A stretch of 64,000 nucleotides of DNA from contig NC_135246.1 of assembly GCF_947623445.1 (NCBI RefSeq), positions 12,259,856 to 12,323,855 of the forward strand, read 5' to 3'. Each line of letters opens with the position of its first letter. The first letter of the stretch is position 1. A program made the position numbers and the translations under genes. This document shows positions 1,190-62,132 of the stretch, piece by piece. The notes beneath the pieces were generated by a model that searched no databases, was not told where the DNA came from, and saw only the letters and a program-made list of their open reading frames with translations. The stretch is from Clavelina lepadiformis. Taxonomy: Eukaryota; Chordata; Ascidiacea; Aplousobranchia; Clavelinidae.

Positions 1190-4100
1190 TCAAAGTTCGT
1201 CTTTCTCTGATGTTTCATCGGTTCGCGTCAACAGAGATCTTTCTTTCAAATATTTAACGAGTTGATCAAAGTTTCCTTGTTGCAGATCGGCGAAAAATTC
1301 GCCTTTTTCGTAATACTTGAGTGAAGGAAATTTTCGCACCGTCAGATGATAACAAACCACTGGAAAAAATAAAATTCACCAAAAAGCGAACTTTACAACA
1401 TCGTTATCAACCATATTAATAATTCAGTAAGACAGTGAAGAATGACATTGTGTCACTCACAGCCTTGCTGGGGTTGTCTGTGGCAGTCCACTGCACCAAA
1501 TCCGACGTCAGAAACTTCATGAAATTCGTCAGCGGCGATGCGAAAATGGCGTCTGGCCGGATCGCACGACTGATAGTAGAGCGAGTGGAATAAGACCACA
1601 GATTGTTGCTATACAAAAGTGACATTAAGAATAGGATATCTCTGAATGACTTCATGGCTTAGTGAAGCGCTTTGCTTATGTCACCGACGAATCTGACTCA
1701 AGTTGCATGACTGAGATCGCCAAGTAAAACGCGACCAAACGATTGCCAAGGCTTGCGCTAAACACGCAATTAAGCCATTTCAGTCTCTCTCCAGAGTACT
1801 ATTAATCGCATTTTTTCCGAAATCAGTAACTTAGAACAACCAAATTGGCCTACATGTTTCTTGATAAAGTCTTCGTAGGTTTTGTTTCCCAAGTGTATCA
1901 CGTGACCGTACTCAGCTTGGTCCATGTCCTGCCAGGAGGTTGGTTTGACTTTCTTCGCCAGATCCTCACTTGGGCTAAAAGAACAGAGGAATATATCTGA
2001 TTCGATGATCGTAGTACAGACCTTATCTTCTAACTTGTTCATTCGGTCAGTCACCAGCCTGTACAGAACTCACTTTCTCATAAACTTTATGACATCTTCT
2101 GACTTCCAGGAACCATAGTATCTGTAACGCGCTTTTCCCTTGCTGCAACATAGTGGTATTTTTTAGAATGATTTGAAAACACTATTTTTTTACGATATTG
2201 TGAACGTGCGACTGTTAATTGGTCAGTAATCGTTAGCTGGTCATTAGTCGTACTTCGATTGATCCGACAACGACTCACTGAAAATAAAGAAAACTTGGAA
2301 AACTGTTTATTTCATATTTCGTTGAGATCGATCGTTCTGGACCGGCATTGACAGCTGCCATACCAACACTTGTAGGCAAGATTCTTCCTAGTTCCTCGGC
2401 GGCTTTCACGTATTCTGGTTTTACGTGCGTAAGGCAAACGGTGCACACTGCGAAATAATTTGCAACGTTGAAATCTGGTTCATAGTCATAGCATATGGTA
2501 GTGTAGGGCAAAGAGTAACAAGGTTATCTACAATGAAAATCAATTGCAAACTATTTGCTGACCATCTACGTAGAAGAAGAGCATAACATGATTGTATTTT
2601 TTGATAAAATCTTCAAAATTATCCTTATGCAGATGATTCACGCGACTGATTTCATTTATCCATGGTGTGGCGCTCTCTATTGGTTTCAACGGTTTCTGTT
2701 CTTGAGGTCTACATAACGTAATATGAAAATCTAATAAAACAAAAGGTTGGGGATAGAATGAAGATTAATTATAAACGATGCAGCAATCTACATTCTACAC
2801 ACGCAAGAAAAAACCACAGGTACAAACTCGCTCAAAAAGTTTAAAAATCCTCGTTTCGTGATGTCGCCATGATATTTAAATTTTCGATCAGCTGCTTCAA
2901 AGTACCAAAATGTTGGATAACCCTTGAACATTGCACAGAAAATTAATACTGATCAATTGACAGTTTATCAAGCACAAATCCTTCCGTGAGTTTGTTCATG
3001 CGAGCTACTGAATGTGTGAACGTAATGTTCTTGAAAACGTTTCATTGCATTAAACTATGCAGCAAAATGTGCATACCTTGATGTCAAAGTCTTTTAAGAA
3101 ACTTGCATATTTTTCAGCATTAAATATTCCAAATCCTACGTCAGGAAGGTCTTCAGAGGCTTCTACGCTAGCTTGAAAAAATGGTCCTTTTGCGTTCTTA
3201 CAAGCTCCACACCCTGACAGAAGAAATGTTGGAAATAAAAAGAAACATTAAAAAGTAGAAAAACGGTTGTTCTTGTGCTTTTCAATTTTTGTGCTATTTC
3301 AATAAAAATATTTAATAAAGACTTCATAATAAGACATTTCCAGAGAATTTTCAAACAGAATTCATATCTATTACGGTAACCCACATGGAGCATAGAACAT
3401 GACCACGGATTCATCATTTTCTTCAAGAAAAGTAGTCAAATTTGAAGGAGTTACCCATTCAACTTCTGGTGGTTTAGAGGATAAAATCTCGTCTTTGTCT
3501 TGAGTTGGAGATTCAGTTCGGGATTTTCCACTCAATCTTCAAAAAGATAGTTTAAAATGCAAGGTAGTCCTGTTTGCATTAGAGTATGTCAACACTGTTT
3601 AGTGTCCAGTCTTTTGAATAATATTTACATTGTTGAACTTACCCAGTCATGAATTTTGCAACAGAAACTGCTGTCCGTGGTCCTCGATACCGTTCAATGT
3701 ATTTACCATTTCTGAATAACGATAGTTTTGAAATGTTGCATGTACTGGGTAATAGAAACTTAACAAAAAGCTACAGGGTATAACAGTTAACCAATTTTTT
3801 CAACGACCTAAAATAGATTAAAGTAGGAAATCCAGTGACATTGTAACGCTCCAAGATTTTTTTAGATTCTTCTCCATCAAAAGCCGCCAAATGAGCATCG
3901 GATGTTTTTGATTTCAAAGAATCCGCAGCCTCCACAAACTGAGGTTTAAAACGTAAACAGTGGCTGCACCCTGAAAAAGTTTAAAAAGAATGCAGCAAAT
4001 GTTATGAAAATTTTACATTGTATCACTGACCAAATTTCAACTTCATACTTACACTTAGCATAGAACATAACCAGCGTGTGTTTACTGGCTTTAACAGATT

Positions 4101-7100
4101 TATAAAAAGAGGTTCTCTGCAATATGGTGACGTTTGTTTTTGCTAAAGACCAGTCCTTGTCAGCTTTTTTCTTTTCAATAAACGCTGGCCTCAACATAAC
4201 AAATTCATGTTTTAGCATTTATAAATGTTTTTTTGGTATAACAGCATCAGCAAATATCACTTACTTCTTCATAAATGCAATAATGGAATCAATGTCGAAT
4301 TTTCCATGATATTGATATTTGAACTTCCCATCATAAAAATAGGCAAAGTAGGGGTAGGATGAAATGGAGTATTTAGCTTTCAGTCTCAAGGCTAAAAAAC
4401 ACCGAAAACATTTATAACACAATGTCATAACACGAATACTTTAATCATAAAAAACTGAAATTATCAAAGCAGAGATATTAATATAAAAATTTTCCAGGGT
4501 ACCTTTAACAATATTAACTGCAGCCAGTGTTACATCAGGTTTTTCTATGTCCAACTGCAGGGCTGTTTGTTCATAGACCTTCCTTAGCTTGTAACATGTA
4601 GAACACGCTAAAAATGTGAAAAAAATTAAGAATACTGTTTGTAAGGTCAGATTGATCTCTTAAGGTACCTGTACCGAATAAGGCCCGGTCCCTAATAAGG
4701 CCCATTGCTCATATTTCGCAAACCCGTGCAAATAAATAAAAGATTTTGTCCCTACATAAAAACTAATATAAATTCATGATGGTTTACCAGATTTCATCCT
4801 TGTCACGTGATCAACCGATTCGCTAGAGCACAACAAAAATTTGATATTTGCAGTTAAGGTGGTTTTGTTAATTTAGAAAAAAAGTAAGTGAGAATTTGGC
4901 CGGTTAAATGAACTGTTGTCAGCCGGCTGAAGTTTTCATGTAACAACCAACTTAGTATTGAAAAGGATAATGCACTTTTTTTTGCTAAAATTTTTCTGAT
5001 GATAAAAATGTGACATTTTTTTCGTGGATGCCACATGCGCCTAATAAGGCCCATACAAGATGCTTGGCTAATTGATGTCCAGACTTCAAGAGTGGTTCCA
5101 GTCATCAGTTGGCAAATTGTTGCAGTTACTTTGATGCGCCTAATGGAATCTTTTTAAATGTTTGTACAACTTAAAATGTGAAATTTCTAATAATGTTATA
5201 TGTTGTCTATTACTATGTTTTGAATCAAAATACTCACAAAATTGGTGGGCCTTATTAGGAGCCTATGCTCCTAACAAGGCCCATTTTTTGGAATTTTTAA
5301 TTTCTTTATAAAAATTTTTTTGGGGGTTGTCAGGTATTGTGGTTTTAATATGTTGTAGTCATATACCCTCACTAATAGAATACGATTTTTCAGTCTATTC
5401 TCATTTATGGTTCTTGAGTTATTTTCAAAAAAGTGTTAGGTGGGCCTTATTCGGTACAGGTACCTTAATGCTTACTGGGAGAATAGAAGAAAACCATCAT
5501 TCCATTTTGCTCATTAGCAAACTGCTCAAATCCTTCATCCTGTAGATGGTAAATGTCCTCAGCAGCTTCATCCATTGACCAGTTGGGATACGATTTTTTA
5601 ACTTCAGGTTTAACTGGGCTACAATTTTTTAAATTTTCAACTGATAACCATAACATCACAAAAACTTTTTACTTAAATTGGAACGTTGCACATGGGCTAG
5701 GAATTGTTGATCAAAATATGAGTTAATACAAAGCTATAAATGGAACGTGAAAGTCAGGCAAGGAAATGTTTAAATAATGTTCAAAAGCATACTTTTTCAC
5801 AAACTGCAATAGATCTTGGGATGTTCTTGACTGCTCATATTCAAACTGCTTTCTACCATTTTCAAACCACAATAATGTGGGCACACCCATCTCTGTTACC
5901 CAAAACTGGTAAATGTATTCACTGTATTTATCACTGTCTATCACTGCCAGGTCCACCCCTACCTGAAAAAAAGGAAAATCAAATTCACTTTTTAACAAAT
6001 TTCACAATACAGAGCGAGTTGCTAAAAGGTCCACTAATTTTAATTCGTTTAGTCTCTCACATTTTCTTCTTTAACACTCCTTGCACATTTAGCAAGATGC
6101 TTTCTTACATCCTTGCAATTTGGACAGTCTTTGCTGTAAACTGTAAGCAGCACACGTTGATGTGACCGAATAAAACTTTCCCAGGTTGTGTCTGAAGCAA
6201 GAAATCCCATTTGGAAGCTTTATTTTAAATCACTGATAAACTTACAGTTCATGCACATAAGCAGTGCACTTAAACACTGTAAACTTACTTGTAAGTATGT
6301 GAAGAAGATCGGAATTTGGAACATGTTTCCAAAACTCATCCTCCTCAGGCAAAACAGCACTGGAATTGGAAGCATTTTGTTGCATAGTGGCAGAGGTTTC
6401 TAGATTTTGTATGAAGTTTACCAGAGCAGACGTCTGCACTCAAGATTTAAGTTGATTGCATAAATAAGGTGCGATTTTTAACTTACAGATTGGTCTTTAA
6501 TGAATTTCCCAAAAACTTTGACCAAACTGTCCAATATATTGCTAAAAAAATTCAGCCAATTGTTTAAGCAGATAACATTATAACAAAGCTAGCAATGAAC
6601 TAATGGGTTAAAAACTAAACTAGAGCCAAAAATCACAGCATATAATATCACCAGCTTGATTTTTTTTATTTTGCCCTTTCATGATCTTACTAATTTTGAG
6701 TATAATCAGTTCATTGTTACACAAACATCAAAATATGAAAATACAAGCAAACTTGCAGAGTACAAAATACATGATAAAAGAGTAATTTTCAAAATTGTAG
6801 AAGGCATAATTTGATTTAATGTCAAACACACATTAAAAACCACAAAGTTTAGACCAAAAACAATTTGAGTTTAGGTGCACCAACATGTATATGAAACACA
6901 TATTTGATACTGTATGAAATATGGCATCTCTCCATTACTAAGAACAGGCTTTTTTATTTTATGACACATGCTGCTACATTTATCTACTTCACCGAGATAA
7001 AGCTGTAGTGCTACAGTATAATTCTGGAATAATCTCTAACCGGAAAATATTGCTTCCTTCTAAAAATACTACTACCTGCAACATCGTGGGCAAGTGTGAA

Positions 7101-10100
7101 GGCTTAACTGCCTTTGAAGTTTACAGCAATTATACTAAAGTGCATTAGCAAATGTATATCGGAAAGTGAAACATACAGGAATAAAGCTTTGATTGAAACT
7201 TGATATCAAAAATTGCAATGCTTAAACAATGGAAAATATTACGCCTATTATAGCTTAAAACACACATGTACCTCTGGTCAATGACAGAGAATGCTTGTAC
7301 CAATCTGACATCTGTTATAAAGCCAAATATAACAAGAACGAGAATACTGTTAATTGCACATAAAACAGTTCAAATTCAGGGCAAAGAAAAACCTACACAC
7401 GTATCATTCAACAAATCAAATTCCAGTTAAAAACAGAATTTTGGCACAAGTGGAAAAACGTTTTCAGAAAATCACTTGCAACACACTAGAGTGTAGGTAA
7501 AATAATTTTTAAGTCAGGTTGCTTTCTGGAGAAAAGATCTTGGCCTCAATGCCAAACACTTGAATGGAATTCCTATAAGCTAATAATATAATTTTCTACA
7601 CAATAAAAAATTTCCAATTACAGCTCTGTCTTGACCAAACTCGTTTTCTCTGTCATGAAGTCCACAAAATTCGGTTCCTACTCAGGTCGAAGTGAAAGGT
7701 GTTATAAGGCACAAAATTCAACCAATTGTTGTTTTGTGTCATCACATTAGAGTTCCCACAACCAACAAGAAAGATGAACAAGAGAAAATACAAAAACAAA
7801 AAACTTGAGAAAGTCAGGTAAAATAAATTCTACAGACTACCCACTACTCTTCAGAATATTATTTTTTTTAAATATTGCTTCCAATGTACTTTTAGTGGTA
7901 ATTTTATGCTTACTAAATTTCATAAGTTTTACCTCTCGGCCTCCCTGATATTTCATTGCGTTTTTTCCATAGGAAAGATAATAGAATGTTGGGTAACCTT
8001 TGACATCGTAATTACCGCAAACTTCACTACTTTTAGTACAATCCACAGCAGCAAACAAAACCTAATAATCAATGAGTATAAAAAAAGTTTAATCTTGGGG
8101 GGATAAGGAAGATAAGATAAAACAATTTAATGAAATTAAGGCGAAATTACCTTTTTATCTTCTGCAAATTGCGAAGCTGCATTCTGGTATTCTGGTTTTG
8201 CTTTTTTGCAATGTCCACACCCTGACAAGCAACATATTTTACACACCCATTGATAAAAATTGAAAACCTGATGTTATTATTGTTATCTTATAATGAAGCT
8301 TACAGGGAGCATAAAACATCACTAAAGCGTGCTTCTTTTTCCGAATGGAAGCTTTAAATGAAGTGTCATCCAAATGCACAACATCACTTTCGATTTCATG
8401 CCAGGCCTTCTCAGGTGGTGGAGGCTCTTTTGGACTAGTAAATCAAAAACTAACTTGAATAATAAAGTTTAACCAAAGCAAAAACGTGCTTTGAAATAAA
8501 CAAAGTGCAATATATAATGTGTCACCAAATTATTATTCCCTGTTATGCTTACTATGCTATCAACTGTAACAGACGTTTTCCTACAAGGTTTACAATAAAA
8601 AACAATGGCTGGGAAAAACTGCTTGTGTATTTTAATGACGGTGCGTTCAGATTTTGTTTCTCAGAGTCACAGCTGCTGTACAGGTTCTTATTGATTTTTA
8701 CTGATCATGTACAGTGCTTTATTGAATACTTGACAAACAACTACACGTCACAACGACGGGATCAATTGTGACCATAAACAGCACTTAAAAGTTAATTACA
8801 CCCATCACAAGAGAGAGAAAACAAGATAATCACCACTTACTCCTTTATATATTCAACAATGCCATCAGCAGTTCTTTTAAAAGCTGAACCGGCATCATAC
8901 TTTTTCTCGCCATTCTCGAAGTATATTATAGTTGGATAGCCAGACACCTGAAACAATAATCTTTAACAGTCAAGTTGCAAAATACTTATTCAAAAGTCAA
9001 AGTTAACCTGATTTGGAGTACAAAACAGTTTTGCGATTTTTGTAATATCACCACAGTCACCTTGAACTGGTCAGCATACTTCCTATACTTGGTTGCGTCC
9101 ATAGCAGCGAGCTTCTCACTTGCTTCTTCTTCCTTCAGTGTAGTTGCCGCTTTCTCCCATTCCGGTTTCAGATTCTTGCAATGACCACACCCTGGTCAAA
9201 ACACACCACAGTTTTGTTTTTTGACATTGTATGTAACGGTAGCAGTTTTCTTAATATCTTGCAGTGCTAAAATTTTTAATCATATTGAAATACTCTAGAC
9301 CTGTGATTCCCAAACTGTGTGCCGCCACAGATTCTCAGGTGTGCCGCGAATCTTTTTGAAATTTTGGAAAAGAACTGTATAAATATTTAAAATAAGGCAT
9401 GCAGACAAGCATATGCGACTTAAAAGCTTTCTAGCTGCTTCAATAGCTGAGAAATGAGCACATGTGACGATGAAACCAATTATAGCATTGTCAATAGAGT
9501 AGGGTAATTTTTTAAAGTAACATTTCTTCTCTTGTAAGTGTGCCGCGAGCGTTTTCTAATTTTTTCTAGTGTGCCACAAGCTGAAAAAGTTTGGGAACCA
9601 CTGCTCTAGACACTATGTCCGGTAACTTACAAGGTGCATAGAAAAAGAGCATAACTTTTTCATTATCGGCAATAAAGCTTTCAAAAGTTTCGTCAGTCAA
9701 ATGGTAGACATCATTCTCCGTATCAGACCATTCCTGCTCTGGTTCTTTTGGTTTGGGCTCTTGTGGACTGCATCGAAAGTATAAAATTCATTTCAACTCT
9801 TGATATTAGAAGATGCTTATTACAAAATAACTCATAATTAAGATTGATATGCAATTTATTGTTTTATATCACAGTGGTAAAAACATGATGATGTTACTTA
9901 CTCATTTAGCCATTCAATCAATTCTTCTTTAGTGTGGCCAGATGAGTATTCAAATAATTGCTTTCCCCCGCTGTGAAAGAGCCACGTTTTAAATTTATTA
10001 AAACACGATGTTTTAGTAGATTTCATTGGTGGTAGATTAAGATTAATATCATAAAAATATCTGATTTAAAGCTGAACCTACTTGAAGTAGACTGTTTTTG

Positions 10101-13100
10101 GGAAACCAGTGACATTGTAAGTTTCCCGCAGGTTCTGACCATCTTTGTTACCTTCAGCATCAATTCCAGCCATGATCTTAGCAGACAATATAAGAGTTAA
10201 AAAGGATATCAAAGTAATGAAAATTATGACATAAATGAAAAAATTACCTAAAACAAAATCATTCATTTATATTAGCAAGGTTGGGCTACCTTTGCATCCT
10301 AGCTTACTGTAAAGAAATGTATAAAACATATTAATTTTGTTTTGAATGTGATATAGGACACCGCTTTGCAGAAGAAAAAAAACAAGTCCGTTTTAGTTAA
10401 GAAATAAGATAAATAAAAGTTCCAGTATATTATACCACTTTTCCTTTCATTTCAGTTGCAACCTCTGCAAAGACTGGTTTGAAACGTTTGCAGTATCCAC
10501 ACCCTGTAAAACACAAGTAACTGACAAATAGCTTATAATCAATCACCAATATCTACTGAGATGGCAAGTTCTAACACAGATATACTCACAGGGAGCATAG
10601 AACATAACCAAGGTAGGTTTATTTTTTTTCAATATTTTGTTCAGTTGCTTCTCAGATTCAATGTGAACAACATCCTTTGCACTGTCTTCTTCTTCCCATG
10701 GGCCGTCGCCTGTTGGGTTTTTCAAGAAGCCCACAATAGACTACAAAATGTAAGTAAACAAAATTTACTTCAACACGAAAAGCTTTTAAATGTTTTTGTA
10801 CATTCCATTGTGTTTACTTTAACGGAAAATTTTCTCTCATAAATCGCACTAAATTCTCCATCTTTATAATGCTGAATTTCCACAGGGGCTGGGTTCGCTT
10901 TCTGCTTTTTGCAAATCTATCATAAAAACACAGTAAAAGGTAATTATAGGTACTACAATAATGAACTTAACAACCTATCATACAGTAAGTGAAAAAGGTA
11001 AACAAAAACAAGGATTAAAACTAACTGCAGTTAAAAAGTGATAGAAACATTGTAACAGTAGAAGTATTGTAGAATCAAACATTTATTTTTTGTATTCTTA
11101 AGATCAGTAAAAATTGAGTTAGCATCAAGTTATGCTTACCTTTTTGCCTTCTTTGTTGCTGCAATCGATCCATGCTAAAGTTGCTGTACCTTTAGACGCA
11201 AGAGCAGCTTCTCCATATATGGTAAACTTCTTCTCTGCTGATTTTTCTGTTTAGAAACAGTATATATATATATATATATATATATATAGGATATTTTGTA
11301 AATTAAACAAAGAGATTAAATTGAACAGAATTAAACAAAAAGCACTGAAGAACTGTTAAATACAGTATACCTTACACACAGTAGAGGTGTAAATAGTTGT
11401 TAATTACAGTTAACAACGAAAACTAAACCTGGTTCGGATGGTATGATAAAAACCATAGTTAATGGCATTTCCTCAGACAGAATTTAGTAAATGCACTATG
11501 TATTACACCTAATCAAGAGATGTCGAAATAAAACCAACTCATATATGAATAGAATATTATTACAAAATCAATTTTTCTTAAAATGGTGGATTTGCTCTTT
11601 TAAAAATTTCCCCTTGGTGCCGTCATTCTCTACAAAAAAATCTTATATTTTACAAACAATTATCATGGTTTTCAATTTGTTGCAATCAACAGATATCTAA
11701 CTTGTATCGAGAAACGTTTCCAGTTGATCAAGCTATGTATTATCTATCAATTTGGCTTTAAAGTTTGGCATTCTACATGTATGATACTAAGCTTAATCGA
11801 GGCGTAAATGCTACTAAACTTGTCATAGTGAATAAATGCTACCATTTGGTAGGAGTTTTGTGTTTTTCTTTTACTGGTAGGCGGAAGTTTCGTATTGTTG
11901 TTCTTTCTGTTTTCGTCCAAGGCTTTGAAAAAGCTGTCATGACAACTCGTGTCTGACCTTTCCTCGAAGCAGGCAGCAAAGTAAAATTGCGCAGCGGATT
12001 TTCCTAGCATCCTTCAAATAGGAATTTGTATTTTTCTAAAAGTTCAGGATCAAATTCTAAAAATCTTTCTAGAATGCTGAACTGACTTCGAACGTCCTAA
12101 ATAATTTAGCAACTTTTGAAAATTTTGATATAAATAGGTTACAGTCACTTTATAAAGTACATGTGCCTAGTGCAAAATCTGCAATTATGGCAGTCCTTAA
12201 TGTACAGTGCATCTTAGTCATGGTCTATTTTTGTATTTTTTGCCAGTTTGTTTGATTCATTCATTCAATGAAGCTATGATATCGTCATACTGTACTTCAT
12301 ATCGTCACTTTAGCAAGTTATGAAAGGTATTGTAACTCAATACCAACTACCGGTACTTGAAACTCTCTTCTAATAGTGCATATATCATAGTTAATTAAAT
12401 TATTTTAGACTGGAAAAATATAGCAAATAAATACATTTTTCTCAGACTGGAATATATTTTATAATTCACTTTCTAGTAAAGTGCGGTACTTATTACCAAG
12501 AGGCCTGCATGATGAGCCAAGATCCTTTTCAGACATAATGGATTTCTCATATAATAATTACAAATAAATGGCCCCAACTTATGAAATACAGTATATGCAA
12601 GGTCTACACTCTACAGCATATTGCAGATTTGAAACAGCACGATTGATTTGCAAAGATACATTTCACAGCAAGTTGAATTCAATTAAGCTAAAGATACATG
12701 AATCACCACTAACCATTATCAGCAAACATCACCAGGACATTGGTTTTAGTCCGAAGCAATTTTTTGAATGATTTCATATTGTCAATATCTTGTAACCATT
12801 TTTTCATGTCAGATTTCTTTGCTGTCGTCCCTGCAGTGAGGTATACCTGCAATAAGAGATTAACAAACAAACAGTTATTCTTTCAAACTTTTTTTCACAT
12901 GCCCAAACAAGTTTTCACCTAAAACAAATTTTGCCACAAAAACAGAAGACCATAAGTTGACTGCAATGTGTTTAGCTACAAATAATAAAGGCATTTTTTT
13001 GTATTTGGTGAACGTCTCACATGTCATCTTAAACCCCTTAAGAGCAACATGTAGTTCATCTATGATAAAAGTTCAAATCCAGTTAACTTTAACTGTAAAT

Positions 13101-14761
13101 ATGGTGGTGACTTTAGATTACGAGGATGAGATAAGTTTTAGGTATATTTCACTTAAATCCAAGATCATTGTGATGTGCTTTCTTGTCAATTCAATACTTT
13201 TATAGTAAATAGTAAATCTTGCACTATCACTGAAGATCTTTTTGGATAGTTTGCATAAGTGCGCCAGATAAATAAGTCACAACTGTACTGCCAAATTTGC
13301 ATTACAAAATCTTCTGTGGTGCCTACAATGTAATAGACTGTGAGATAGTTGAAGGTCATAATGTCAAATACGGTTGCTTGCAGTGACAAAAGGTTGGTCA
13401 TTTATAACAGTGGTTCCCAATATTTTTTGTCTAACCTGGTTTCGATCGAGAATAGTCTGGTGGACAGGTAATAACTAAGTTTGACATCACACATAATTAG
13501 GCCTAGATCTAGAACAAGAGGATTCAAGGGCATAATTGTAATTTCTTATCACTGTTTGATCACACTTTCAATTGCAATTATTCTGGTTAAGATAAAAATT
13601 GTCGTATTTCCGGATAAAACTATTTTTATCTCTTTTGCTATAGTTACCTGTGCATTTTTTTCATATTTTCTTTTTCAATTTTACTTTTGCCATTATTGAC
13701 GTTCACTGCCTTTGCTACATCATGAATGTTGCTTAATTAATAAATTCTTGCTTTGTTTTTACACTCTCGCAACATTTCCGGCAATGTCTATATACATAGA
13801 AGTATATACATAGAAAGATAACTGCAATTGTTTTCAATGGGTTCAACATATAAGATAGGAAATGCTTTTAAATTCCTTATCTTATCCTCTTATCCAGTTG
13901 TTTTGATTTATACAATTAATTGACCTTTACTATTACAACAAAGCATAAACTGTTATAAGGATATAGAGTATAGACCAGTTATTGTTGGCTAAAGACCGCC
14001 ATTTAGATTAAATGTCCTCGTAAACCAGTAGCAAACTTTTCGTCACACAATACTGGGTCACGATCCAGCAGATGGAGACCGCTAATTTATAACATGTGAT
14101 ACTTTCTCATGATTTAAACAAAAGCTTTACTTTTTCTTGTCTTCAATTTGTTTCATAAGGCAAAATCTTATCTCAAAAAACAAATATTTTTCAATGACAA
14201 TTGTCTGAAAAGTTGTGACTGTAACCAAATATAGTTAGCGGCACACTTCTTGTCTGGTATCTTTCCTTCTTAGCAAAAAAGAAAAACCGAAAAAATGCAT
14301 CATCATTTACTGAATTGTCCTTCAATATTACGGAGTTACCAATTGATATCTGAAAATGTAGAAGCCATTGCTCATTTTACGTAAATACCGACAGAAAGCT
14401 CACCCTTAAAAACGTGAGACTATATAGATAAAAAATTAATGACATACAGTGAGCGGAGATATTGCAGTTTGTTTGTTGTTCCTTGCCATGAAGCAATTTA
14501 ATGGTAAAAAATTTTTTGTTCAAGTGATAACTGAAAAAACCACTAATTTAATTTCCGACAAATTTGCACCGTTAGTCTCAGTAACTTTTGTGGAATCGTT
14601 TTGGCTAATAAAAGAATACAATGGCACAAAGCGTTAAAATTTTTGTTCCTATTAAAACAAAATGACCCACAGACTATATAACGTCCAAACAACACACTTA
14701 CCAATACAAAAATGAAACAAACTGCAGCCACAGAGCCAGATACATTGCTTCGAATATTCAT
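1190..14761 (-). CDS. PDIA5: Giant PDIA5-type protein disulfide isomerase, ten thioredoxin-like domains, KDEL end
   Basis: ER thiol-disulfide oxidoreductase/isomerase, 1,294 aa. Coding exons: 14702-14761, 12714-12846, 11140-11246, 10818-10916, 10590-10740, 10436-10503, 10082-10176, 9902-9970, 9631-9767, 9061-9191, 8841-8947, 8304-8434, 8151-8221, 7933-8061, 6289-6433, 6061-6191, 5793-5962, 5476-5618, 4503-4607, 4265-4391, 4053-4189, 3808-3970, 3643-3711, 3385-3536, 3077-3213, 2828-2922, 2563-2708, 2279-2447, 2074-2142, 1854-1974, 1461-1608, 1190-1359. All have GT-AG borders and the phases sum to 3,885 nt with no stop. A hydrophobic signal peptide spans exons 1-2. Residues about 30-133 are a PDIA5-like N-terminal domain without CxxC. 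Nine further domains carry, in order, WCGYC (184), WCGHC (307), WCGHC (430), DCPNC (566), TCSTC (693), WCSHC (816), WCGAC (944), VCTVC (1070) and SCDPA (1203, second Cys lost). Where checked, a cis-proline motif follows (GFP, GYP, GVP, SYP, SFP, KFP). Residues 1291-1294 are KDEL, the ER-retrieval signal. The first four domains match the PDIA5 layout; the other six are extra. Family assignment is sure; the role of the added domains is unknown. Confidence 0.95.
4664..5464. mobile_element. 801-bp inverted-repeat DNA element with TTAA target duplication, in PDI intron 18
   Basis: The ends are perfect 23-bp inverted repeats starting GGTACCTGTACCGAATAAGG. They are flanked by TTAA at 4660-4663 and 5465-5468. 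A TAATAAGGCCCA-type motif recurs inside, near 4690, 5042, 5250 and 5272. No transposase frame is seen, so it is non-autonomous. TTAA duplication is known for piggyBac and Kolobok-type transposons, but the terminal bases are not the usual piggyBac CCC, so the superfamily is left open. The element makes up nearly all of the 868-bp intron (4608-5475). Confidence 0.8.
9301..9603. mobile_element. hAT-type miniature element (303 bp) in PDI intron 9
   Basis: The right end read inward is CAGTGGTTCCCAAACTTTTT and the left end is CTGTGATTCCCAAACTGTG, typical hAT termini. An identical 8-bp target duplication, CTCTAGAC, stands at 9293-9300 and 9604-9611. GTGTGCCGC motifs recur inside. There is no coding capacity. 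Confidence 0.9.
11261..11288. repeat. (TA)14 microsatellite
   Basis: An uninterrupted TA run of 28 bp in PDI intron 2. On the minus strand it sits 14 nt upstream of the exon 3 acceptor, so it overlaps the usual branch-point and pyrimidine-tract zone. Confidence 0.95.
13408..14084. mobile_element. hAT-type non-autonomous element (677 bp) in PDI intron 1
   Basis: It starts CAGTGGTTCCCA; the other end read inward is TAGCGGTCTCCA, an imperfect inverted repeat. An exact 8-bp target duplication, ATTTATAA, stands at 13400-13407 and 14085-14092. No transposase frame was recognised. The weaker terminal match suggests an old or hybrid copy. Confidence 0.75.
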
Positions 14762-26091: not shown

Positions 26092-29000
26092 TTACTGGCG
26101 ATGACATAATCCGGTTTCAGACTGTCCGGAATATCCGTAACCTGGCATAACATGCTGCATTCCTGAATCTATGGGTGGGGAAAACAAGCCACTTGCTTTC
26201 TGAGTGGAGTGATTGGGGCGCCCTTTAATATAAGGAGGACTTTCATCTTTGATTTCACCCGGCTCTGGTGTCGATTGAGAAGAGTCATACGAGACCAACG
26301 AGCCAAATCTTGAAAGATGTGGCGCAATGCAAGTGCCGCCATCATTTTCTTCTTCAAAAATCTCATCAGGCATCTGTGCAGAAACTGGGGCCGTCGGGTC
26401 AAAATCTTGTTTCAAGGAAGCTGAACTAAAAAAGTTTGATTCCTTTCCATTTGAAGCTCGTTTTAAAGTTACAGTGGGAACTCCAGATCCTCCAGCTTGT
26501 TGTACCTGTAATGTACACATGACTTTGGAAAAACATTTTTTCTCTTAGGTAGTAAGTCAGCTTTTTATCAAGCACATCAAGTCAAAATACTGGTGGGAAA
26601 ATATGGCTTTGGATATCTTTGTTGAGTACAGATTGTTGCCATTAAACGATTGTGGTGCAATAATCAAGTCAGACAAAATCATGTGTGATTGCTGTGCAAC
26701 CAGGGGGCAAAATACTGCATGAAAATGTTTGAAGTACAGGGCAGTATCATCACAGATGCCAGTTTAGACTGACTTTGGATTAATTTATTGTTCAGTTTAA
26801 TAAAATTCTCAACCTACATTAATTTATTTTTTTGTTAGGTCAATAAAATCTTGCCCTAGTAGTCATGCTTTGGTACCTTCGTGATAGCATCTGAAAGTGA
26901 CTTCTGAAACACAGCTTCAGCTATTGGTTCATTATGCTTTCCAGACCTAAAAAGAAATACAGCATAAAAGGGTTTTCAGATATACTTAATACACAACTTT
27001 GGTCACCACCCTTACTTTGATGGATGCTTGCTGTGGTGCTTCTGCTTGCCAGTACCATTACCACTGCTGGATCCATTACCACCAGAATGATTATGACGAT
27101 CTTCAGATCTACAAATGGAAAACCGTTTGTGATGAAAGTATAAAAATCGCTTGTTTGGAGTTATGAGTGAAAATTGGGTACCTGCGTGAATGTTTAGCAG
27201 TTGTATGGCCTGCAGGATCCGCAAGAGCCCTTTTACGGGAAGGAACAGGGGATGCCTCTGATCCCGAACCAGAACTAGAGCCAACAATTTTAGCCACAGA
27301 CGTGTTTGTGCCACTTTCTACAGGCTTAGGACCTAATTTGATTCGAAGAGTGAGAGGACCGGCAGGAGAATCTACATGTGTGGTATGAGACTCATTATCT
27401 ACTGCTGGGGTTTTACTGTGTAGTTTCATTTTGGCTTGATTTTCAGCAGCTTTCCTTCTTCGCTTTTCCTCTTCTTTTGCCTGCAACTTAGCATAAATAT
27501 TCTTTTCTTCCAGCGTGAGTGGTGAAGATTGAGCTTTATGCTTTAGAAGGCTTTTCAGCTTGTCAGGATGCTTTCGATACATTTCAATCATTCGCTTTGA
27601 ATCCAGCTGGAATTTATTTTTACCGCTGTGTTCATGTGAGCTCTCGCCAGGAAAAATCTTTTGATCATGAGGTCGGCGTGCCAATTCAACAGGGCGACCA
27701 TCACATGCATTTTGCAATTTTTCGCTATGATGGTGGCGTGATGAATCGTTTGGATTATAGTTATCTTTAGCAACACTGTTATTATTACTGCGTTGCGAAT
27801 GGTGAGGCAAAGCAGCAGGATGGGTTCCAGACCGATAATGTCCGGCAGATTCTGCTGTAACGTTCTGCAAGAGTTTCTCAGACTGAATTCTTCCTTCTAA
27901 ATCTTTGCTTACAACCAAAATCTCTGCAGGTGTATCATCGTTATCAGCTACATGTTTTTGTTGAAGCGAGTTTGAAACTGGGTGATGGATATTGCTGTGT
28001 GGCTTGGAAGGTTTTTGGTGGTCAATTGGTTTGACATGTTTCTTTTCCATTCCGGGAGGCTGAGGCTTCATCATATTTTTATTGTGCTGTTGTTCATTGG
28101 CTTTCACTCGGTCACTTCCCGGCCCAGGCTTGTGGTCATGGACAACATGTTTGTGTGACTCATTTACTGCTTTGTGAAACGGGTGAGATGGTTTGGTCCC
28201 GAAATCTTTCAGATAATTAGGTTTGGGCTGACTATGATGAGGTAGAGCATGACTTGTTCTTGAAACATCATGACCGGAATGACTGGGTGGTCCATGGCTG
28301 TCAGTCTTTTTAACTGCCCCTGCAGACACAATAAAATCATGCTTTATATGAGCTTGGGTGAAATCTGATGAGGAGTGTCTTAATTACCTGTGTGTGAGGG
28401 AGGAGGAGGTTTATTTAATGGATGACTGGATTTCGTCTGTTGTGGGGGACGTGTTCTCTTGTATTCCTCAATTGACATGGTTGGTTTCTTTTCCCTAGAT
28501 TTTAATTTTCTTTAAAGTTTGCTTTACGCTATACAATACATTTTATTTTTGAAGTAGAAGAAACAGCATAACTTGGTCATAATCAATTAAACATACTTCA
28601 CTGTTGCTGATGAAGGGACCTGTGCTCGGCTATGTCCTTGCTGGCCTGCAAAAGACTCAAACATTATCAAACCTTCCTTGGGAAATCTTGAAAGTGAAGC
28701 ATGCATGTGCTATGTACAGTTGTACACGCTTTTGGGCAGCCTATTGTAACTCAGCAGAAAGTAAACGACTTTCAAACATCAAGGGCAAAACTGACACCCA
28801 GTTGCCACTAAACTAAAGCAATGCGAAGAGAACATTTGAATTGAATACTACTAATCCTAATAACAAAAACTTACTATTTGATGATTTGGAAGATGAAGCA
28901 TCTTGCCTTGATTCTCCATCTGCTTTTGTAGACTGGGCAGGCTGCAAAAAAGAAATTTTGTGAAACCCAAAGCACCAATTGAGTAACACATAAAATGTGC

Positions 29001-57209: not shown

Positions 57210-60200
57210 ATGGATAAAGAGGAAGCGATTTTTTGTTTAAAGCAAGCTTATGCTGCTTCATCCTCGGATGATAATGATGATGATAATGCCGACAGTGTTA
57301 CGTCCACTGGCACTAGTCCTGCAAAGGAAGAGGAACTTTTGCATTTAAAACCGCCTCCACAAGGAAGTGGTGCAAGCATGGCTCTGGCTGCCATTAAATC
57401 TAATCCTGATGTAATTACAAAGGTGAGATGAAATGAATGTTAAGGTTTTCTTGTGGAATAAGCTAGGGCATTCTATGTTTTTGCTGCATGGTTAGTGTTT
57501 GCAAGGTCAGTGTGCTTGCATTTTGACATGGTATGTTGCTGATTATTTGTGCTAATTGTTATAATTAGCCCTTATTCCTACGGAATTCTTGTAAGTGCAG
57601 ATCTGATGATATTATAATGTTATTATAGTGTTCTATTTCGTGTGTTTAACAGCAAGCACTGTACTATATTTTGGCCGTGTTTAGTATACGCAACACATTT
57701 TATTACTTCCAAATTATGTCATTCGTTATCAAAGCTTTTAATGCACTTTCTCAATTGTTCAGTCCAGCATTGGCAGTCATACTGAATGCATCTCTATTTT
57801 GTGCTCTGAAAGCAAGAACATTGTCAGCTTGGTTATTGTATTGTGATGCCCAACTAGTCTATCATTATTAAACGAACAGACATAGGCCTATCAGTGGAGT
57901 CAGACTAACGAACAAATAATCAACCAGAAAGTAATTACACTTAAAAAAATCTAGTAAGAACACTGGCAGGTGTCACAAATTATCTAGATTATAAAAGTTT
58001 ACTAACGTCAATCATCCCAACTTTCGACTACTTCTTTAACTCTCACTGCCATGAACACTGAAGGGCACTTATTGCGTAAAACTTTTTCAGATTATGGTAA
58101 GGGAGCATCTAATATTTTTTAAGAGAAAAAATATTTTTAAAATGACTATCTCACCGGCGTCCATTCATTGAAGTTGCAAAATCACAATATGGTGACCAGC
58201 AGATTTTCGCTGATAGATTTATCATTTTTGTTTTGGACGAGAGGAAGAAAGCAATGTGATGGCGTAGTGGTTTACGATGGGACTCGTATGCGGGAGGCCT
58301 CGGGTTCAAATCTTGCTATCATTTCACTTCTTTTGTCCAAATTTATTTTTGATATAATTTAGTCATGAGAAGGAAGAGTTTGGGTCGGAGGGGATTAGTT
58401 TTAAGTTCATTTAAATTTTGGAAACAAGTTGTTATTTTTAGTTGAAAAATAGCGTTTATTTCAGTTTACAGCCTAGCTTAGTAATTTAATCATGAGGAGT
58501 GAGAGTCAGTAGGGGTTCAGTTATAAGTTAATTTACACTATGGAAAAATTTTTATTTACCCTCATTACCCTGGTTTACAAGTTACCCTCCACATTGTGCA
58601 GTCTAATAAGCTGGGTATACAATGGAAGCTCAATGATTTGTAGTTAAAGGCAACCATTAAATTAATCTGTTATTTGTAAAGTTTCATTTATAAATGAAGT
58701 TTACAATATATAGGACACCTCACACTGTTACACCTGTAGCAATTTTTCGCAAATTGAAAGGTTACTTTGGTTTGGGTTATCTTGAATTTCAAGCAGAATT
58801 GAGTTAACAACCTTCCACTCTTATGTGTAATGTTTTTAGCCTACTGCCTACCATCTGTTGATATGTACTAATTTGTCAAATTCCAACAATGTATGCCAAC
58901 CAGGCTACAATACAGCATATTTAATTAAAAAATCCTATACCATTTGTGTATTTACTTGCAGCATGATGTCTATAACGTGAAGGTGGTTGACCATGTCACA
59001 AATAAGGTTGTTAGTTACAATCCAACATTTGCTGAGATGCATGTGCCAGAGCAGGTAACGGTATATCCATTGGCTATTGCGTATTTAAATAAACCTTACC
59101 TTTTCAGAACAATACTAGTTAGTACATGACAATTTGTTAGTTCTCTATGACATTCTATTTGGTGATGCTTGTTATGGGGATTATATCTTTATACGGTTTC
59201 TTTTTGAGTTTAATATGATAAGGCATGATTTTTATCAGGGGCCAGCAAATCCATTCAAGACCAGGCAGCAATTAGCACAGAAAAATACACTCTCTGGGTA
59301 TGTGCAGGAGGCACATGTCAGCCATTTTAACTTTGAAACTCAGAGAAGGACGTTTCATAGTTACGGTAAAACATATGATTACTTCATTTTTTTGCACTGA
59401 AATGCTTGTGCATAATTTAAACGTTGTCACCAATTTTATTTCATTTGTAGGATTTGCTGTGGATCCCTCAATTGAACCAGGTTCAAAACAAGAGAAACTT
59501 GTTGGTGAGTTAATGTATAAAAAACAAGTCACATATTATGAATTGTTCTGAAGATTTTTTGCTATACATACATCATATTTGTAATATATAAAAAATACAG
59601 ATGAAACTGAACAACTGTGTCTTGGTGTTACTTTTTCAAATGTTATTAGAAAAATATATTAGGTAAAATATGCTATATGTGACAATTCTTTTGTTTTTTG
59701 ATGCTGGACAGTCTGCCAGACAGATTTTGATCACGATCCAGATGAAAAGAAGGAAGAGGAAATAAAACCCAAAAACTCTGTCCCCAATGGAACTAAAACT
59801 GTGTTTGAAAAAATTGAAAAACGTCCCGAGGACAAGCGGAAACGAGTTCGTAAAAATGATCCTGAAGATATTGAAGGTTTTATGGGTCCTTGGGGTGGTT
59901 TTGTTAATGAAGTCAAAGTTGCAAAACCAAGCGAAGTAAGTGGCCGTGCAATGCGTGAAAATGCCATAATGATATTGGCTCGTGTTTGGATTTACCACTT
60001 GTGATGGAATAGATTGTTTGCAATTTTGCTATTAATTATTTAGGAAATGCAGAAGGAGTTGGATGAAATCACTGCTAAACGACAAAAGAAAGGCAAGGTT
60101 GACGAAGAGAAAACCATTGAGGAGAAGTCAACACTCCATGTTCCAGATCCTACCGACTATCAGGTTTGTGGACTGCTGTTTAGTGCTTCATTAAACTTGT

Positions 60201-62132
60201 TGGCCAGTAGTGTGTGTCTAAGTCTTGATCTTAATTTCTTACAATTTGCTTACAAAATTGTTGAACAGGGTCGAACATATCTTCACATTCCGCAAGATGT
60301 TGGAATTAATTTAAAATCAGACGTTCCTCCTGATAAATGTTATCTCCCCAAAAGACTTATACATACCTGGAGTGGCCATACGAAAGCTGTGTCCTCAATC
60401 AGATTGTTTCCTAAATCTGGTCACTTGTTACTTTCAACATCAATGGACTGTAAAGTAAAGGTGAATATCAACACTTGCAATTTAAAGGTCATCCGAAATC
60501 CTTCGCTATCAAAATTGAAATGAAGAAGCTGCAGTTATGTTTCGGCTTATAACAGTTTTGAGTTTACATAAATATCTTTATACAATTTTTTTATACAATT
60601 TATCATAAATACAATTTTTATTTATAAAGCTGTGGGAAGTTTATCATAAGAGAAGGTTGCTTCGGACATTTTCTGGCCATGCAAAAGCAGTGCGTGATGC
60701 TTGTTTTAATGCTGATGGAACACAATTCTTGACAGCTGCCTATGACCGATTTGTAAAGCTCTGGGATACTGAAACCGGTGGGTGTCATTATTATGAGGTA
60801 TTGTGTCTGCAAATGTGCAATGGATGAGGAAAAATGTGTTCTGTGTAAAAAAGAGGATAAATCGTGTTTGTTTGTAGCCTAAAAAGAAATGGCTGCATGC
60901 AACATGCTGGAGCCACCGATCTTAAACCTAAGCTACTGCTACTCACATTCAACTGAAATATCATATTTTATGCTGATTTCAAGCAATTCCACATATTTTG
61001 CTCTTGTTTTTGCAGGGAAGTGCCTTTCAAAGTTTTCAAGCCGCAAAATACCATATTGTGTCAAATTCAATCCTGACCTTGACAAACAACACTTGTTTGT
61101 TGCTGGACTTTCAGACAAAAAGATTCTTACGGTATTCATAGCAACTATATTATTTGGAAAACGTTTTTTGTCATTTTGGTAAAACCAGAATGTAGCAAAT
61201 CACCAATTAGTGGACATAAAAATACTCATGAAATCAACATAATATGAACCGTTAAATTGCTACTGGCAGTGGGATATCAGATCTGGTGAAACAGTACAAG
61301 AATATGATCGTCACTTGGGGGCGGTAAACACTATCACGTTCATAGATAACAACACAAAGTTTGTGTCAACATCTGATGACAAAAGTCTACGTGTTTGGGA
61401 ATGGTAAGCAATGGATTAACTTAATTTCAATGATTTTCGATATACGACTTCTGGTCGACTCCATTAATTTGTAACTGTTTCATATTCCTTGATTTTGTGT
61501 TGTTTCAGGGACATTCCTGTTGATTACAAATACATCGCGGACCCTTCTATGCACTCCATGCCAGCAGTAACACTCGCTCCAAACGGCAAGTGGTTAGGCT
61601 GCCAGTCGTTGGATAACAGAATCGTGATATTTGATGTACAGACAAGATTCCGTCTAAAGCGTAAAAAGATTTTCAAAGGGCACATGGTATAACAACTTTA
61701 TAAATTAACACAGATTCTTTTGCCAGTAGTTGCTATATTCCATTTCAATTTGTGGTATATTTTCCTTTGCAATTCCAGTAAAATTAAATTTTAGCTTTAC
61801 TCTAACCAGCTATGCTCATTTGCAAACTTTTGGGGAACATCAGCTAGGCAAATAGAATTGAACAGTTATGTAAAATAAACCTACCTAAATTTAGTAATTT
61901 TGTTTTAAAGGTTGCTGGCTACGCTTGTCAGCTTGACTTCTCACCCGACATGTCGTACATTGCGTCTGGAGATGGCGACGGTAAAGTTTTCATTTGGGAT
62001 TGGAAGACAACCAAGTTATACAGCAAGTTCCAGGCGCACGACAGCGTGTGCATCGGATGTACTTGGCACCCGCACGAGACGTCCAAGCTCATTACATGTG
62101 GATGGGATGGCCAAATTAAGTTGTGGGATTGA
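57210..62132 (+). CDS. CDC40: CDC40 / PRP17, WD40 pre-mRNA splicing factor
   Basis: Second-step splicing factor of the spliceosome. Exons: 57210-57422, 58962-59054, 59239-59365, 59451-59504, 59712-59935, 60044-60163, 60269-60460, 60630-60777, 61016-61131, 61270-61403, 61509-61686, 61911-62132; phases agree over 1,821 nt, giving 606 aa, close to the human protein (579). The N-terminal part has the family blocks [31 protein letters not shown] and [15 protein letters not shown]. From about residue 285, after [12 protein letters not shown], come the seven WD40 repeats: [24 protein letters not shown], the DKKILTWDIRSGE region, [24 protein letters not shown], and a final [13 protein letters not shown] at the stop. 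The start follows an AAA at -3 and the frame is open to the first donor. Introns are short except intron 1, which carries a SINE. Confidence 0.97.
58243..58550 (+). mobile_element. tRNA-derived SINE, copy B, in CDC40 intron 1
   Basis: The head has an A-box-like TGGCGTAGTGGTTTACGATG and B box GGTTCAAATC (58303-58312) with tRNA-like spacing. The body shares TTTATTTTTGATATAATTTA, AGCGTTTATTTCAGTTT and AGTAATTTAATCAT in order with the 15.1-kb copy. The two copies are clearly diverged. Confidence 0.7.

Follow-up and report, generated by a model that had tools for sequence, protein, structure and literature searches.

A PDIA5-type gene of the ascidian Clavelina lepadiformis with predicted four-domain and ten-domain forms

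Human PDIA5 is a protein of 519 residues with four domains and a C-terminal KEEL (PMC3500226), its active-site motifs being CSMC, CGHC and CPHC, and some PDIR orthologs have extra C-terminal catalytic domains, the mosquito protein having four catalytic domains and that of Hydra eight (PMC3629029). Here we analyzed a stretch of 64,000 nucleotides of the ascidian Clavelina lepadiformis (assembly GCF_947623445.1, contig NC_135246.1, positions 12,259,856 to 12,323,855 of the forward strand; hereafter the window, in which all positions are counted), whose minus strand carries a PDIA5-type gene running from 14761 to 1190. Our findings suggest that this is probably one PDIA5 gene, in which the choice of the last exon leads to a four-domain and a ten-domain form.

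Two predicted ways of finishing the fourth domain

The initial annotation had proposed a chain of 32 in-phase exons encoding an endoplasmic reticulum (ER) protein of 1,294 residues ending in KDEL, and splicing the minus strand independently led to an identical protein, with SEKDEL as its C-terminus. All 31 introns of this chain are of the GT-AG type and the gene contains no N; the exon ends are predictions, the splice sites having been picked by consensus, frame and domain fit. Exon 1 (14702..14761) provides the start codon and a strongly hydrophobic, signal-peptide-like N-terminus, which scored 3.42 by simple hydropathy only. Exons 12-14 (7933..8434) encode the fourth thioredoxin-like domain (D4, active site WCGHC). 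The last codons of exon 14 read GGRE and its end, in phase 0, lies just ahead of helix alpha-4 of D4; two downstream exons both take phase 0. The first of them (7677-7618, minus strand), located midway in intron 14 of the proposed chain, reads EPNFVDFMTEKTSLVKTEL followed by a stop codon and finishes D4, so that exon 14 joined to it yields a complete four-domain PDIA5 of 515 residues with the retrieval signal KTEL. This product is identical in 511 of 515 residues to the public C. lepadiformis model P0121, whose C-terminus is GGREEPNFVDFMTEKTSLVKTEL. An absence of any ending proper to the first four domains is therefore not supported, as this terminal exon lies inside the very interval, 6.4-7.9 kb, that the initial annotation had marked as decisive. 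Similar ends occur in six other short tunicate-like proteins, namely Phallusia P0122 and P0124-P0127 (all KTEL) and P0129 (KMEL); P0124-P0127, P0129 and P0135 are taken to be of tunicate origin on account of their similarity.

The second candidate, exon 15 (6433-6289), is the first of exons 15-17 (5793..6433), which encode an alternative end of D4 (TSALVNFIQNLETS), a linker and D5, and it leads on to the long form with its KDEL retrieval signal. From Met513 on, the long product is identical in 775 of 782 residues to a second public C. lepadiformis model, P0001 (782 aa), which begins at this methionine within exon 15, covers D5-D10, terminates in KDEL and has no signal-like N-terminus. The suitability of both exons for completing D4 was scored with a hidden Markov model (HMM) of 141 domains from which Clavelina, Styela, Ciona and Phallusia were left out. 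The D4 core alone obtained 138.2 bits and the core with the retained intron 138.8, as compared to 150.5 bits with 16 codons of exon 15 and 151.5 with the 19 codons of the KTEL exon. The background, 1,917 stretches of 16 stop-free codons that follow AG (both strands, window 15,001-64,000), yielded no score as high as either of the last two. The agreement of the opening 16 codons with helix 4 is our main evidence that exon 15 is meant to follow exon 14, and it should be kept in mind that this test measures helix fit, not splicing.

Weighing one gene against two

Several observations weigh against a single gene with two forms. The exon 14-15 junction of Clavelina is predicted from genomic sequence, the two 3' splice sites in competition seem weak on visual inspection, and the corresponding extension in the long form of Styela gave 146.2 bits, a value reached by 4 of the 1,917 background stretches and thus a weaker helix fit. 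In the public models of Clavelina the gene is divided between P0121 (515 aa) and P0001 (782 aa). Among the matches listed (the best 120 of 201 and the best 120 of 7,965), 12 proteins are tunicate or tunicate-like, seven of which are short forms with an X-EL end (P0121, P0122, P0124-P0127 and P0129), and only Styela P0003 joins D1-D10. As for the others, P0123 and P0135 are D1-D4 records cut short, the former (Ciona savignyi, 475 aa) stopping before the position of the KTEL exon and the latter breaking off within D4, while P0001 and Ciona P0039 comprise D5-D10 only. In addition, the predicted fold of P0001 (see below) has a predicted template modelling score (pTM) of 0.39, which makes the relative placement of its domains uncertain. 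A protein search with P0001 returned no further tunicate D5-D10 series among the matches listed, a result of little weight because Ciona P0039 was not returned either. It may be that the long form is rarer or that long records are less easily found.

An alternative that we consider rather unlikely is a pair of adjacent genes, one for a four-domain PDIA5 closed by the KTEL exon, the other, downstream of it, for D5-D10 with its own signal-peptide exon or a trans-spliced leader. Besides the completeness of the short form, the prevalence of short proteins among the matches listed and the split public models, it is favored by Ciona P0039, which starts with MQRHKGALIILYARTC, a short N-terminus different from the Met513 start of Clavelina. 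The initial annotation had reasoned that transcripts ending near exon 14, together with a separate transcript starting near exon 15 with its own signal peptide, would reveal two genes. The former probably exist, as the predicted KTEL exon indicates, but the latter are unsupported above chance: between 7617 and 6434 there are three signal-like combinations of an ATG and a donor, from the ATGs at 7267 and 6807, and at least one such combination appeared in 191 of 300 shuffles and at least three in 61 of 300. This search used simple hydropathy plus a donor rule and is coarse, so that a true exon could hide among the candidates. By the same score, the N-termini of Ciona P0039 and Clavelina P0001 obtained 1.62 and 0.46, respectively, versus 3.42 for the full gene, so that no clear signal peptide is apparent in either. 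Furthermore, a helix that completes D4 would be needless at the opening of a separate protein, and in Styela the domains are joined in one record.

A functionless long form, arising by rare read-through or by cryptic splicing, would agree with the single joined tunicate protein among the matches listed, but it is very improbable, as D5-D10 are open with 36-50% identity in each domain when Clavelina is compared with Styela or Ciona, and the three ascidians have active-site states in common (CPNC in D5, first cysteine of D10 lost). An assembly join or collapse within 6.4-7.9 kb, which the initial annotation had named as a possible refutation and of which we saw no sign, is hardly credible given the gene without N, the same domain order in Styela, and P0121 and P0001 probably sharing one contig in another assembly, as the contig of each has a reported length of 15,448,049.

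Our preferred reading remains a single gene that can close with either of two last exons. According to this proposal, exon 14 would stop before the last helix of D4 and either of two downstream exons would supply it: exon 7677-7618 would add the helix, KTEL and a stop, giving an ordinary four-domain PDIA5, and exon 15 would add the helix and a linker leading to six more thioredoxin domains and the KDEL end. Both mRNAs would be made, and the choice between them would produce two ER thiol oxidoreductases, one short and one long, the latter possibly acting as an extended multi-site enzyme. Its domains with WCxxC (D2-D4, D7 and D8) may perform ordinary disulfide exchange, D5, D6 and D9, with CxxC but no preceding tryptophan, may have altered redox properties, and D10, with one active-site cysteine left, may bind or hold substrate without turnover. 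More tentatively, and with somewhat less than even confidence, we suggest that ascidian PDIA5 is subject to a regulated exon choice between a KTEL four-domain and a KDEL-type ten-domain form, and that the vertebrate form would be the short choice, fixed once an ancestral series of additional domains had been lost. If so, splicing within one fold could switch the number of domains that a folding enzyme has, and vertebrate PDIA5 would be a trimmed version of a longer animal enzyme.

Domains, active sites and introns

The iterated HMM recovered ten thioredoxin-type domains in the long product, each at 42 to 144 bits; this model was seeded with five domains of the same protein and iterated over 25 chosen proteins, and hence is not fully independent. 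Independently of it, Pfam PF00085 matched the 1,294-residue protein with an E-value of 1.2e-163, and nine stretches individually passed 0.001. The proposed ten domains, six of them beyond the first four, were thus recovered by the HMM, while Pfam alone gave nine. Apart from D1, the domains were assigned by the splice and the HMM, with the tree described below adding to D2 and D4, the helix-fit test to exons 15-17, and the public-model match and helix-fit test underlying the KTEL exon. D1 (residues 35-143), a non-catalytic domain of the PDIR/PDIA5 type, is encoded by exons 2-4 (12846-12714, 11246-11140 and 10916-10818; 10818..12846) and over residues 39-156 matches the solved N-terminal domain of PDIA5 (4i6x, E-value 4.5e-26), which, together with its place in the tree, bears out the assignment of the gene to the PDIA5 type. 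Right after it come three CxxC domains, D2 (153-263; exons 5-8, 9902..10740; WCGYC), D3 (277-388; exons 9-11, 8841..9767; WCGHC) and D4 (400-508). The remaining domains are D5 (535-647; CPNC), D6 (663-772; exons 18-20, 4265..5618; CSTC without a preceding tryptophan), D7 (786-895; exons 21-23, 3643..4189; WCSHC), D8 (914-1023; exons 24-26, 2828..3536; WCGAC), D9 (1040-1151; exons 27-29, 2074..2708; CTVC without a preceding tryptophan) and D10 (1170-1280; exons 30-32, 1190..1974), where the first active-site cysteine is lost (YYQSC) and SEKDEL and the stop follow.

CxxC is hence present in each of D2-D9 and absent from D1 and D10. The CPNC of D5, the lack of tryptophan before the CxxC of D6 and D9, and the loss of the first cysteine of D10 are common to Clavelina, Styela and Ciona. 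Read directly from the sequence, a proline ahead of strand 4 is present in D2-D10, which by analogy we take to be the cis-proline. An AlphaFold2 model of P0001, computed with an alignment of 25 proteins, reached a mean predicted local distance difference test (pLDDT) value of 80.6 with the pTM of 0.39, and six thioredoxin-like units were read from its secondary structure, in agreement with the six additional domains; an earlier fold without alignment (pLDDT 30.0) was superseded by it. The best match of this model among solved structures was ERdj5 (E-value 1.2e-36), followed by entries containing PDI. The 18 top PDB matches had low template modelling scores (0.13-0.22, by query length), which we attribute to the uncertain domain placement. 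The folds of D1-D4 are predicted from sequence matches, and those of D5-D10 also from the predicted model.

The intron positions recur along the gene. In seven of the nine domains D2-D10 (D2, D3, D4, D6, D7, D8 and D9) a phase-1 intron splits the codon right before the first cysteine of CxxC, this codon being tryptophan in five domains, threonine in D6 and valine in D9, and in seven of nine (D2, D3, D5, D6, D7, D8 and D9) a phase-2 intron lies 76-78 residues past that cysteine. The phase-1 intron is missing in D5 and D10 and the phase-2 intron in D4 and D10, D4 ending instead at the phase-0 intron at +66. Both recurrent introns occur on either side of the D4/D5 border, and their positions fit exon duplication within one gene.

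Some further features were observed within the introns. The first automatic splice contained a 33rd exon (6588-6487), in phase but with a poor acceptor, and it was dropped; a shorter version starting at 6541 needs phase 2, whereas exon 14 ends in phase 0. This exon-like stretch (6541-6487, minus strand; SNILDSLVKVFGKFIKDQS) has a T-run acceptor and a GTAAGT donor, resembles helix 4 by eye and is in the wrong phase for exon 14; possibly it is a remnant or an exon of another transcript. Intron 18 harbors an 809-base element (4660-5468) with perfect 27-base inverted ends beginning with TTAA, presumably piggyBac-like by the TTAA rule. Forty copies of it, this one included, were scored out of 248 candidates, all near-full-length and with 99-100% identity, which shows that it was active recently, and the element is probably more numerous than these. 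In intron 9 a short element (9294-9610) has 23-base inverted ends (87%) reading TTCCCAAACT inward, which we take to resemble hAT-type ends. Elsewhere in the window, an open reading frame with a WD40 repeat (Pfam E-value 3.2e-8) was found at 60044-60523 on the plus strand, and a His- and Lys-rich open frame of 424 codons without Pfam match at 0.01 at 27109-28383 on the minus strand; scanning the window for Rfam families and tRNAs gave no hits.

Relatives and comparison with known systems

The layout of ten domains, which the initial annotation had suggested looking for in related species, was found in Styela clava P0003, a single predicted protein of 1,267 residues with 51% identity over 99% of the query, and the D5-D10 series is also present in the predicted protein Ciona P0039. 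Clavelina and Styela share 62-71% identity in D1-D4 and 39-48% in D5-D10, and Clavelina and Ciona 36-50% in D5-D10; the short protein P0126 and Styela P0003 share 77% identity along 488 residues. The alignment placed residues 1-16 of Ciona P0039 (MQRHKGALIILYARTC) against the KHALVMFYAPWC strand of D4; this odd N-terminus may be a diverged thioredoxin exon. Counted with the same HMM in the 25 proteins, domains numbered ten in this gene and in Styela, six in Ciona P0039, and four in Sorex and Phallusia; 11, 11 and 12 in amphioxus, with nine in a B. floridae model without retrieval signal; nine in Hydra, eight in Oculina and Gigantopelta, seven in Patella, Argiope and Exaiptasia (the last domain of the latter incomplete), six in Owenia, two urchins, Glandiceps, Crassostrea and Lingula, and five in Daphnia. 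Also scanned were P0012 and Dimorphilus, which appear duplicated or fused, and Sphaeroforma, which has no non-catalytic D1. A total of four domains is true of the short form and not of the long one, with its ten, and the other invertebrate relatives scanned have 5 to 12; judging from these sequences, a four-domain total would be a vertebrate feature rather than a feature of the family.

The domain tree, obtained by a quick method, covers 105 domains (110 columns) from 14 of the 25 proteins, the other 11 having been left out to limit its size, with supports from the Shimodaira-Hasegawa-like approximate likelihood ratio test (SH-aLRT); of its 102 inner branches 21 are starred and 39 open. D1 (support 100), D2 (99) and D4 (96) each share a clade with domains of other animals, Sorex among them for D2 and D4. 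D3 does not group with the D3 of other animals, and ascidian D3 and D5 adjoin (91). Ascidian D5-D10 cluster by position over Clavelina, Styela and Ciona, with supports of 100, 94, 97, 95, 93 and 99, respectively, and D10 comes together with the terminal domains of Hydra and amphioxus at a support of only 82.

The long product, if real as one transcript, had been presented as among the largest PDIs and possibly undescribed, which is not supported. Many-domain PDIA5 is already known, as a Hydra PDIR having eight catalytic domains has been published (PMC3629029), and public amphioxus models reach 1,565 residues and 12 domains. Among the titles and abstract starts listed for the open-licence literature on PDIA5, ascidian PDI and large PDIs, none dealt with a long ascidian or amphioxus PDIA5, and no description of the two alternative ends or of the ascidian D5-D10 series was found in these listings or in passages of two of the papers. 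Automatic annotation splits or mislabels these genes, Styela being "uncharacterized", several cnidarian proteins "PDI A4" and Clavelina cut in two.

Compared with described systems, vertebrate PDIA5/PDIR resembles the short form, with a non-catalytic D1, three catalytic domains and a KEEL-type end (human data from PMC3500226 and PMC3629029), although the human motifs CSMC/CGHC/CPHC (PMC3629029) correspond to CGYC/CGHC/CGHC in Clavelina. Unlike the long form of Clavelina, vertebrate PDIA5 (human; Sorex P0201) ends after D4. ERdj5/DNAJC10 is, like the long form, an ER oxidoreductase with many thioredoxin domains, but it has a DnaJ domain (PMC3500226), whereas no DnaJ family was among the 15 Pfam families matching the 1,294-residue protein. 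Hydra and amphioxus have D1-D4 plus further domains in one predicted chain, as in the long form of Clavelina. Hydra PDIR XP_002159276 (PMC3629029) has an N-terminus of the PDIA5 type and, in the same protein, a series of additional thioredoxin domains on the C-terminal side; Hydra P0025, which may differ from that record, has nine domains with WCxxC in eight, while ascidian D5-D10 form clades of their own. The amphioxus models P0004 (1,565 aa), P0007 and P0005 share with Clavelina a start of the D1-D4 type followed by more domains, the last without CxxC, but differ from it in having 11 or 12 domains, in that all their CxxC motifs are WCGHC and in that many of the extra domains cluster together.

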